64,000 nucleotides of DNA, taken from contig ALYF01000003.1 of the NCBI GenBank assembly GCA_000293845.2, forward strand, positions 620,001-684,000, given 5' to 3'. The position numbers were made by a program, and so were the translations under genes. This DNA is from an alpha proteobacterium IMCC14465 (lineage in GTDB: Bacteria > Pseudomonadota > Alphaproteobacteria > RS24). The notes below the pieces were generated by a model. It was not told the DNA's origin and made no database searches. It saw nothing but the letters and a program-made list of their open reading frames with translations. This document shows, piece after piece, positions 14,934 to 24,284 of the stretch; the stretch's first letter is position 1; every line of letters starts with the position of its first letter.

Positions 14934-14952
14934 ATATTTACCTTTTACATTG

Positions 14953-15050
14953 TTGCGGAAGAGACTGATTAAATTCAGCGCCGAAGGAGCAACCGCCCTC
15001 GGAAACTCTCAGGCAAAAGGACCGCTTCAATTAAGGACTCTGGAAAGCAG
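14953..15050 (+). ncRNA. Glycine riboswitch, aptamer 1
   Basis: Matches the glycine aptamer consensus closely: GCGCCGAAGGAGCAA at about 14978-14992, CTCGGAAACTCTCAGGCAAA at 14998-15017, then AGGACCG and the closing ACTCTGGAAAG. It is upstream of the glycine cleavage operon, the usual target. P3 is short. The paired 5' strand is around GGAAGAGAC (14957-14965). Confidence 0.95.
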
Positions 15051-22029: not shown

Positions 22030-22869
22030 TTGGCTTCTGACTTTGTTCGGCGAAAATATTTAAACAAACTTTATGAAATGACGGAACGTAATATTATTGC
22101 CTATTATTCAGGATGGCAGTCCAAGCCGGGTGTTTCAGGAACTGAAATAAGAGATGAGGACACAAACGGTTTTATGCGTGCAGTACATGGCTTGGATCGT
22201 GATAAGGGATTAGATTTAATACTCCATACTCCTGGCGGGGGTATTGCTGCCACACATTCCATCATAGATTATCTTCAGAATATTTTTAAAAAAAATATAC
22301 GTGCTTTTGTTCCTCATATGGCGATGTCGGGTGGAACGGTTATGGCTTTGTCGTGTCGGGAGATATTTATGGGCAAGCACTCCTTTATTGGTCCAATTGA
22401 TCCGCAAATAGGTGGCTTGCCAGCCAATGGTATTCTTAAGGATTTTGAGAGAGCTTTTGAGGAAGTTAGTGATGATAATGCAAGGATGATTGTGTGGGGA
22501 CCAATATTAAGTAAAATTTCACCTGGCTTTATTACTCAATGCGAGAATGCTATTGCTTTGTCGAAAAATTTTACCAAAGAGCAACTGAACAGTAATATGT
22601 TTTTTGATGATGCTGAACAAAATACAAAAGTTGCTAAAATCATAACCGCCCTTACCGAAAATGATAGTGTAAAATCACATGACCGCCACTTAAGTTGTGA
22701 TGAAGCATTGGATATTGGAATTAAAATTAAAATGTTGGAGGAAGATTCAAAGCTTCAGGATTTAGTGCTCACAATTCATCATTGTTATGTTCATGCACTA
22801 TCCAATACTCCGACTTTTAAAATTATTGAAAATCATTCAGGTGGGGCTTTTATAAAGTTGATGGCCTAA
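22030..22869 (+). CDS. ClpP-fold serine protease, SDH/SppA-like (N-terminus interrupted by amber)
   Basis: Matches the serine dehydrogenase proteinase family (ClpP/crotonase fold). LDLILHTPGGGIAATHSIID forms the oxyanion region, the likely nucleophile is S100 in PHMAMSGGTVMAL, and GPIDPQIGG carries a conserved Asp. The natural start appears to be ATG 21973, but its codon 4 is TAG; the frame then stays open into the conserved RRKYLNKLYEMTERNIIAYYSGW. Translation could restart at the TTG at 22030, or the gene may be a recent nonsense mutant. AT-rich codon use sets it apart from core genes. Confidence 0.8.
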   Translation: MASDFVRRKYLNKLYEMTERNIIAYYSGWQSKPGVSGTEIRDEDTNGFMRAVHGLDRDKGLDLILHTPGGGIAATHSIIDYLQNIFKKNIRAFVPHMAMSGGTVMALSCREIFMGKHSFIGPIDPQIGGLPANGILKDFERAFEEVSDDNARMIVWGPILSKISPGFITQCENAIALSKNFTKEQLNSNMFFDDAEQNTKVAKIITALTENDSVKSHDRHLSCDEALDIGIKIKMLEEDSKLQDLVLTIHHCYVHALSNTPTFKIIENHSGGAFIKLMA

Positions 22870-22972
22870 ACCAACTCCCTTAAAGCACCCCTCACCACCA
22901 GCGCTAAAAACTATTACATAAAACCAATTAAATCTGTTATATTCGGTTTGCGTCATGCGGACGGTATGGCGC

Positions 22973-23194
22973 GGGGTTTAGCAACCTTCACTCACAAGCC
23001 GCAATCATAAGAAAAGAGTTTGCGTATGTGGCTTGGCGCACTCTCCGTTTTACGGAGGCGGGCGTTAAGCCTTTTTTTATGGTTCGCGGGCACACTCCGT
23101 TCACCCCTTATAGGTCGGGGTGGCGGCTGAATATGGCTTCCTTCGGGAGGTCGAATAAGTCGTGGTCGGTCTTGTGAGCGGCTTGCTAACCCCC
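22973..23194 (+). ncRNA. Candidate large structured RNA upstream of the island regulator
   Basis: A long-range stem pairs 22973-22984 (GGGGTTTAGCAA) with 23183-23194 at 11 of 12 positions. A second, nested stem pairs CTCACAAG (22991-22998) with CTTGTGAG (23171-23178). Inside lie hairpins CTCCG-N5-CGGAG, CACCCC-N9-GGGGTG and CTTCC-TTCG-GGAGG. A strong terminator follows at once. There is no credible ORF across it. I assign no family; it could be a leader of the downstream regulator gene or an independent RNA. Confidence 0.6.
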
Positions 23195-23228
23195 GACACC
23201 AAGGGCAACCTTGGTGTCGTTTTCTTTG
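23195..23228 (+). terminator. Rho-independent terminator
   Basis: Perfect 10-bp stem GACACCAAGG / CCTTGGTGTC with a GCAA tetraloop, followed by GTTTTCTTT. It lies between the structured RNA and the XRE-like gene, so it either ends the RNA or acts as an attenuator. Confidence 0.85.
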
Positions 23229-23250
23229 ATAATTAAAAGAGGGGGCGCAT

Positions 23251-23655
23251 ATGACGAATAACAACACCCAAAACCATCTCACCCAAAACCATCTCACGCA
23301 AAACCATATGGCTGAAAACCATCTCACCGAAAAAGAGGCGGGGCATCTGGCCGATAATCTCTGGCTCTATAGATTGCGCTACCGCAAAACCCGCGAGGCC
23401 ATGGCTAAGGGGATTTGCGCTTTCGACGATTACCGCGATTATGAATATGGCACGCTGGTGCCGCCGCCCGAAAGGCTGGCGCAATTCGCGGAACGCCTGC
23501 ATGTGTCCGTCGCCACGCTGAGCGACCCGCCCGACTATGCGCGGTTGCTCAAAAACTACCGCATCCGCAAAGTGACCGAACTCTATTGCCTGCTGCCGAA
23601 AAAACGCCAACGCAACGCAATCCTCAACCTCCTCCGCGATTTGGTTACGGGGTAG
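23251..23655 (+). CDS. XRE-like helix-turn-helix protein with Asn-His repeat tail
   Basis: 134 aa. The first 25 residues are four copies of a 15-bp unit read as QNHLT-like. After that comes LADNLWLYRLRYRKTREAMA, then YRDYEYGTLVPPPERLAQFA and LHVSVATLSD, which has the spacing of a Cro/CI-type helix-turn-helix. The C-terminus (KVTELYCLLPKKRQRNAILN) is basic. It is GC-rich, unlike the protease and nuclease genes on either side. Start ATG 23251 has an AAAGAGGGGG ribosome binding site and lies 23 bp after the terminator. Probable island regulator; target unknown. Confidence 0.7.
   Translation: MTNNNTQNHLTQNHLTQNHMAENHLTEKEAGHLADNLWLYRLRYRKTREAMAKGICAFDDYRDYEYGTLVPPPERLAQFAERLHVSVATLSDPPDYARLLKNYRIRKVTELYCLLPKKRQRNAILNLLRDLVTG
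23266..23325. repeat. 15-bp tandem repeat inside XRE-like gene
   Basis: Four in-frame copies (23266-23280, 23281-23295, 23296-23310, 23311-23325) of ACCCAAAACCATCTC with small changes, coding for the Asn-His-rich tail. Confidence 0.85.
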
Positions 23656-24284
23656 GTGAGGGGGGCGGTGCGTATTTGTCCGGCCTAATAATCATTCCTT
23701 TGGCTGTTTGAATTTCTTCAGGGAATAAATTATCGGCGAGGTGATGGGCTCGGAGTTCTCTAAAACGATCTCCTATGCGCCTCATTTCAGAATTTGCGCG
23801 CCGTGGTGGTGCGATTATCTTAATTATTTTATCAGGGTAATTTTCTTTTATGAATTTAATCGCCGGAGATAAATCTGTGTCACCTGATATCAGAATGAAA
23901 TAATCCACCTCGTCTGAGTGAGCAGCATCAATCATATGAACAGCAATATTTACGTCTGTTTCTTTTTCTTCATGTTTAGAAAATTCTTTCTCACATATTT
24001 TACACTTGATGTTTTTTTTTCTTAAAGCGACCAAGAATTATTTCAACCTTTGTGGTTGATAAGGCACGAACATACCTTTGGTGACGTTTGTGTTCTTCTG
24101 GGCGCCATCGGGCATAAGATGTGAAATACTTTATCCCAACAACAGTGTGTACATTTTCATCAATATACACGCCTGTGAGTTTTTCAATATTCAGCCATTT
24201 GAGATGATCTTGTTCAAGGTCATCAATACCGTGGTATAAATTATATCCATCAATTAGAACAAGAACCTGTTTTTTTGTTGTCAT
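23645..24284 (-). pseudogene. NYN-domain nuclease (LabA/DUF88-like), frame split at an A9 run
   Basis: Two overlapping minus-strand frames make one NYN (PIN-like) nuclease. The upstream part (24284-24000) has VLVLIDGYNLYHG with the first catalytic Asp. The downstream part, from about 24010, has EKETDVNIAVHMIDAAHSDE and YFILISGDTDLSPAIKFIKE with the other acidic residues. They join at a run of nine A on the coding strand (24012-24020 as T); eight A would restore GRFKKKNIKCKICEKEF. This is a real frameshift, a sequencing error, or decoding by slippage. A CxxC (CKIC) sits at the join. Intact length would be about 210 aa. Such nucleases typically act on RNA. Confidence 0.82.

Follow-up and report, generated by a model that had tools for sequence, protein, structure and literature searches.

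In the window, by which we mean the whole stretch of 64,000 nt that was analysed, a structured RNA of about 275 nt (22950-23225, plus strand) adjoins an XRE-type gene on its 5' side. We consider it reasonably probable that this is a leader RNA, containing a chromosomal relative of sRNA-Xcc1 in a layout like that of phage C4 antisense RNA, which restrains the gene behind it through premature termination together with antisense pairing. The initial annotation had proposed a structured leader or a trans-acting RNA ending in a terminator, and this description is supported by the data presented below.

Architecture, distribution and covariation of the RNA

The RNA begins about 23 nt upstream of position 22973, where the initial annotation had placed its start: an extra hairpin, P0, occupies 22950-22972, and its loop takes part in a pseudoknot. 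The parts of the RNA and its surroundings are:

22933..22943, plus strand: putative extended -10 promoter element TCTGTTATATT, found by eye, 7 nt 5' of P0
22950..22972, plus strand: P0, first hairpin, loop GGACG (22959-22963); the stem varies among copies with pairing kept
22973..22984, plus strand: P1 5' strand (decoy strand 1), pairing with 23183-23194
22991..22998, plus strand: P1b 5' strand CTCACAAG (decoy strand 2), hypervariable, complementary in most of 47 copies
22999..23089, plus strand: P2/P3 arm, with covariation on core alignment A2
23097..23102, plus strand: CCGTTC, pseudoknot partner of the P0 loop, which pairs with 23098-23102
23102..23122, plus strand: P4 hairpin CACCCC/GGGGTG, 97.7% of cells paired in 44 copies
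23114..23120, plus strand: strand B, GUCGGGG, with U next (23121); forms the 5' half of the acceptor-like stem closing the sRNA-Xcc1 fold, also part of P4
23123..23163, plus strand: P5 arm, GCGGC (23123-23127) with GUCGU (23159-23163), 99.5% paired in 44 copies
23164..23183, plus strand: P6 hairpin, antisense-type segment; its loop (23169-23178) and flank are the P1b and P1 3' strands
23183..23194, plus strand: P1 3' strand TTGCTAACCCCC, pairing with 22973-22984
23191..23197, plus strand: strand C, CCCCGAC, followed by ACC(A) at 23198-23201; 3' half of the acceptor-like stem, RCC(A) signature
23194..23223, plus strand: intrinsic terminator, whose stem covaries
23240..23245, plus strand: AGGGGG, probable Shine-Dalgarno sequence of the XRE gene; five G-C pairs possible with strand C, not above chance
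23251..23655, plus strand: gene for an XRE-type helix-turn-helix protein of 134 aa, conserved partner of the RNA

Both long-range stems of the initial annotation were found where it had located them, P1 with 11 bp (GGGGTT.AGCAA/TTGCTAACCCC) and P1b with 8/8 pairs (CTCACAAG/CTTGTGAG, 22991-22998 with 23171-23178), as were the inner hairpins, including the one capped by UUCG. Specifically, the P2/P3 arm is closed by CCGC (22999-23002) with GCGG (23086-23089) and contains P3 (23030-23039 with 23062-23071), after which follows a U-run (23072-23078), six U columns of which are invariant in 26 copies. The P5 arm shows double changes at four of its five base pairs (44 copies), encloses a twin AAUA internal loop (23130-23133 and 23154-23157) in which both blocks are invariant, and ends in a UUCG-capped tip (23135-23152). 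The terminator is GCAA-capped and placed as previously described, with a stem of 11 bp (23194-23219) instead of 10, followed by TTTT; the distance to the ATG of the XRE gene, given before as 23 bp, is 31 nt when counted from where the terminator stem ends and 27 nt when counted from where its T-run ends. The GCCGC/GCGGC switch that had been suggested is not conserved in the homologue alignment. A scan for consensus sigma-70 promoters upstream of the RNA gave no match; by eye, TCTGYTA-type elements were seen at the equivalent position 5' of most copies.

By BLAST, three copies turned up in this genome, all further ones being confined to the same family, and a pattern scan of named genomes assigned the RNA family to the marine PS1-clade 'Rhodobiaceae' Alphaproteobacteria; a pattern scan of viral contigs and a phage BLAST with the window sequence gave no match. 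With a covariance model of the core, matches were obtained in 19 of the 28 family genomes, and with a model of the 3' half (R2) in 22 of the 28, with up to 10 copies per genome. R2 also recovered diverged copies among 385 genomes of the class Alphaproteobacteria, in 22 genomes of 15 other families, one of which carries them in 10 of its 12 genomes. The PS1-clade copies are mostly syntenic, in the usual order RNA, terminator, small gene. Syntenic loci are found across genera (ccrM-RNA-XRE-mutY in g1 and g4, ychF-RNA-XRE in g1), and a mobile element was therefore ruled out. A gene-order search and the family search returned identical sets of 28 genomes.

The predicted fold of the RNA has an energy of -136.9 kcal/mol, compared to -96.0 (sd 5.2) for shuffled sequences (z = -7.8); for the minus strand, z is -6.2. 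Across 47 related copies, the 5' and 3' strands of P1/P1b match their own partner with a score of 34.3, against 22.3 (sd 4.1) for the partners of other copies, and we conclude on this basis that the structured RNA is not a chance fold. Compensatory changes in the two long stems, the lack of which the initial annotation had named as grounds for refutation, are abundant, and P1b exists in many independent sequence versions. In the core alignment (26 copies), 92.6% of cells pair and 33 cells show double changes, compared to 11.3 in shuffles. The 3'-half alignment (44 copies) gave 95.3% of cells paired, double changes at 13 of 22 pairs and 89 double-change cells, compared to 27.1 in shuffles; sliding the partners by one column lowers its pairing to 35-40%. 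In addition, the P0 loop, GRAYG, pairs with CGUUC 5' of P4 in 23 of 26 copies (shuffle p = 0.001), and the pair types covary: GGACG/CGTTC, GAACG/TGTTC, GAATG/CATTC and GGATG/CGTCC.

Competing pairings of strand B and the acceptor-like stem

Strand B, the 3' arm of P4, has two alternative partners, namely CACCCC locally, within P4, and CCCCGAC (strand C) at the terminator foot, which C overlaps. The competition between the two pairings is conserved among copies. Across the 44 copies, B:C is paired in 99.7% of cells; the variable pair is U-A, C-G or U-G and never C-A, and one orthologous group reads GCUGGGG/CCCCAGC. Strong covariation of B:C is seen outside the PS1 clade, its complementarity exceeding that of permuted strands both in other Alphaproteobacteria (24.0 vs 16.5) and at loci matched by RF02221, the Rfam model of sRNA-Xcc1 (25.2 vs 18.2); examples of its versions there are GGGCGGATGT/ACATCCGCCC and GTTGGGAGG/CCTCCCAAC. 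In the PS1 clade, the values are 22.8 vs 21.8, the strands being too uniform for permutation to discriminate. B:C resembles a tRNA acceptor stem, with G as first base in 44/44 copies, seven pairs, U next in 43/44, and then R-C-C. A tRNA/tmRNA search found none. For the full RNA, the locked fold is predicted at -136.9 kcal/mol versus -113.7 kcal/mol with B:C forced, and in the excised 3' unit folding gives B:C a probability of about 0.9-1.

The double use of strand B also suits a transcription attenuator sensing a ligand or a protein, in which B would move between P4 and C so that the terminator foot is freed or blocked. In almost every copy, B can pair with P4 as well as with C, the overlap of C with the terminator foot amounts to 3-4 nt, the twin AAUA loop is invariant, and the diverged copies precede very diverse genes, many of them for lipoproteins and exported proteins. 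Transcription-attenuating riboswitch leaders likewise consist of structured leader, terminator and gene, with an alternative pairing at the terminator foot. The RNA family differs from such leaders, however, by its hypervariable covarying loop and its orphan copies: the most striking covariation, that of the hypervariable 5' strands with the hairpin loop, suits antisense or decoy pairing better than a ligand pocket, and some copies are without a downstream gene. In addition, relatives carry complements to ribosome-binding sites, B:C is not favoured in the full-length fold, and no Rfam riboswitch matched at the RNA. All together, we regard an attenuator as unlikely, though not negligibly so.

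Relation to sRNA-Xcc1 and to phage C4 RNA

The Rfam search that the initial annotation had proposed as a check found no family at the RNA: nothing reached the gathering thresholds, and up to E = 10 only five unrelated sub-threshold matches (E 0.75-1.7) appeared. RF02221, searched against 22850-23300, gave no match up to E = 10. In diverged copies, RF02221 overlaps exactly the 3' unit, with 33-56 bits, and its consensus also aligns to the 3' domain of paralogues; scores are 56.2 in L169, 42.7 in L114 and 35.2 in the same-genome paralogue L020. The membership cut-off is 53 bits, and the best PS1-clade relative, L112, reaches 43.8. The copy in the window has the structural organisation of the family, that is, a closing stem round an AAUA...AAUA arm and a second hairpin, with RCC after the stem. 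Since RF02221 does not detect it, we describe its 3' half as a distant relative of sRNA-Xcc1, and not as a member by Rfam's rule.

Specifically, sRNA-Xcc1 has a closing stem GGCCGGGG/CCCCGGCC, the AAUA-AAUA arm, the second hairpin and RCC after the stem, and the 3' unit in the window shares this plan with its 7-bp stem GUCGGGG:CCCCGAC-ACC round an AAUA/AAUA arm and a hairpin. In genuine members, the same two decoy strands occur on the 5' side, beyond the boundary set by Rfam (32.4 vs 21.5 permuted at RF02221 loci). Compared to sRNA-Xcc1, the copy in the window adds the P0 pseudoknot, the competing P4 arm and a strong terminator directly after RCC, and lies in conserved chromosomal synteny and not in an integron. 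The RF02221 loci carry a second complement downstream, over the ribosome-binding site, as in L225 (CCGAAAAGGAGCAAACAG before ATG) and in phage Aaphi23 (TCGAAAATAACAAACAGGAG before ant); they are located upstream of ant in two phages, such sRNA-Xcc1-ant leaders being those of Aaphi23 and Rac-SA53, and elsewhere upstream of genes for SymE and Bro-N proteins. Earlier reports describe sRNA-Xcc1 as an 88-nt transcript with mapped ends in X. campestris (PMC2996969), place it upstream of symE in integron cassettes (PMC12444791) and mention five clustered copies in Xylella (PMC12189769).

In L112 (1319-1403, minus strand; 43.8 bits), and also in L035, L045, L080 and L117, a second, shorter sRNA-Xcc1-like unit with the twin AAUA motif, its own closing stem and no visible 5' lock was observed 3' of gene-less copies.

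In C4 of P1/P7, RNase P makes the 5' end and loops of the processed RNA block target ribosome-binding sites, and multicopy chromosomal C4-like RNAs exist in Acinetobacter (PMC5320573); c4-a1b1 is listed as an Rfam family (PMC2864571). At the RNA in the window, RF01695 (C4) gave no match, and the c4-a1b1 model scored 13.8 bits, far below its cut-off of 46.7. The resemblance lies in the layout. With C4 of P1/P7 (RF01695; c4-2, RF02944; c4-a1b1, RF03163), the RNA shares a leader-encoded position just 5' of the gene, two short antisense segments, an upstream target-like copy that competes, and an acceptor-like stem that may suit RNase P. The c4-a1b1 family has upstream competing a1/b1 strands, and here the upstream complementary strands P1 and P1b compete in the same manner for the antisense segment; the signature G first, 7 bp, U next and RCC would be of the RNase P type. 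The antisense part differs from that of C4 in consisting of one P6 loop and its flank, with no RF01695 sequence match, and the AAUA arm is absent from the C4 description consulted. A further difference is that a target site was not found for the window copy, whose a2/b2-type complement at the downstream ribosome-binding site is limited to five pairs (p = 0.43), whereas such complements are present in RF02221 loci and other Alphaproteobacteria. The initial annotation had likened the sequence to leaders near prophage Icd-type genes; Icd is a target of phage C4 antisense RNA, and as to layout the comparison leads in the right direction. In our literature search, nothing connected sRNA-Xcc1 with C4 function, the sole joint mention being a list. 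The layout here and at sRNA-Xcc1 loci is C4-like, with the C4 order of competing strands, presumed antisense RNA and presumed target ribosome-binding site.

A sub-threshold c4-2 RNA (34.8 bits) was seen in L216 (2890-2958, minus strand), about 1.3 kb from an sRNA-Xcc1 copy and on the same strand.

Downstream genes, target sites and proposed mode of action

The XRE gene family c0 lies directly 3' of about 17 copies in several genera, its ancestral loci being ccrM-mutY, ychF and a third one. Its products form a divergent helix-turn-helix family, and the predicted fold of the XRE protein (pLDDT 78) gave weak but consistent matches to regulators of the ClgR/SinR/DdrO type (best E = 4.6e-3). Other PS1 copies precede small membrane proteins, and several are without a recognisable downstream gene, which counts against the leader reading; the diverged copies in other families precede lipoproteins, exported proteins and XRE regulators.

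Pairing with ribosome-binding sites was assessed by a gap-penalised score with permutations, which replaced RNAduplex scoring because the latter was too permissive. The XRE ribosome-binding site offers the window copy no more than GGGGG:CCCCC, a complement within chance expectation (p = 0.43), and a search of the genome with the antisense segment, at up to three mismatches, found no other site. The complement was significant at RF02221 loci (21.5 vs 15.2, Fisher 2.5e-9) and in other Alphaproteobacteria (Fisher 1e-6), where it spans up to 14 aligned positions from the Shine-Dalgarno sequence to the AUG, and weak overall in PS1 copies (5e-4, aided by the odd palindromic copy L016); these combined Fisher p-values are optimistic, as related loci were treated as independent. 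In L016, the terminator is extended into a near-perfect long palindrome (TTTCCTTCCCCAATCGACACC...) that reaches the ribosome-binding site.

The weak complement in PS1 copies, the orphan copies without a gene, and the RNA's own putative promoter and strong terminator would all fit a purely trans-acting sRNA family, to which the XRE gene would be a mere neighbour or a regulator of the sRNA promoter; the title of a cited report describes sRNA-Xcc1 as trans-acting. Against this, several genera have a c0 gene immediately after the RNA, at a number of ancestral loci, in other lineages the matching site sits on the gene behind the RNA, and the genome itself yielded no trans site. We hold this explanation to be quite unlikely.

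The order promoter, structured RNA, terminator and small gene is also that of type III toxin-antitoxin pairs, in which the RNA would directly neutralise the small protein. The downstream proteins, however, come from families with no relationship to one another (XRE, membrane proteins, lipoproteins), the XRE model suggests an ordinary helix-turn-helix fold and no endoRNase, and no tandem repeat is visible in the RNA, all of which makes such a pair very improbable.

Under the leader reading that we prefer, transcription would start just 5' of 22950 and mostly stop at the terminator before the XRE gene, giving a transcript about 275 nt long. The 3' domain of this RNA (23114-23200) could fold as an antisense-type unit composed of the 7-bp acceptor-like stem with ACC, the twin-AAUA arm and a hairpin, the last presenting the antisense loop and its flank. 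The two decoy strands of the 5' domain pair with loop and flank and would hold the 3' unit inactive until it is freed by processing at the acceptor-like stem, the probable enzyme being RNase P, which also acts on C4. The freed unit would be expected to act as an antisense on a ribosome-binding site; we infer transcription, processing and repression of the XRE gene by termination and/or antisense pairing, with a presumed target for the window copy. What the data demonstrate is the structure and its covariation, pairings that exclude one another, the kinship with sRNA-Xcc1 and the synteny with a downstream gene.

On a broader scale, the chances seem to us about even that sRNA-Xcc1, the phage ant leaders and the RNA in the window form one superfamily of self-locking, leader-encoded antisense RNAs, domesticated on many occasions for chromosomal control in Alphaproteobacteria. 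If so, up to 10 copies per genome would stand before lipoprotein, membrane-protein and XRE genes, each distinguished by a hypervariable loop/decoy code of its own, and the sRNA described as trans-acting would mainly be a cis-encoded regulator of the following gene. sRNA-Xcc1 would thereby gain a testable mechanism, in which the leader decoy restrains a loop that pairs with the following gene's ribosome-binding site, and the logic of C4, known from phage immunity, would reach into the chromosomal gene control of many alphaproteobacterial families. The 87-nt boundaries of RF02221 omit the 5' half of the element.

Some further observations concern related loci and the rest of the window. A diverged second RNA type was found in L110, L113-L115, L118, L123, L126, L129 and L130, preceding two families of small single-helix membrane proteins of about 90-108 aa, one of which has a Myb/SANT-like tail; three proteins tested had no Pfam match. 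A serC leader RNA (RF00517, 68 bits) is located a few hundred bases 3' of gene-less copies in L019 (1885-1936) and L021 (1976-2027). Within the window, an SDH/ClpP-like serine protease gene (22030-22869, plus strand), which matches phage family phrog_11747 at 1.4e-85, sits between ccrM and the RNA in this species and is absent from the syntenic g4 loci. An NYN-domain protein at 23645-24284 (minus strand) appears to be divided between two overlapping frames (129 and 94 aa), probably as a result of a frameshift, and a Glycine riboswitch (RF00504, 66.9 bits; 14946-15034, plus strand) lies upstream of a glycine-cleavage-type gene cluster.
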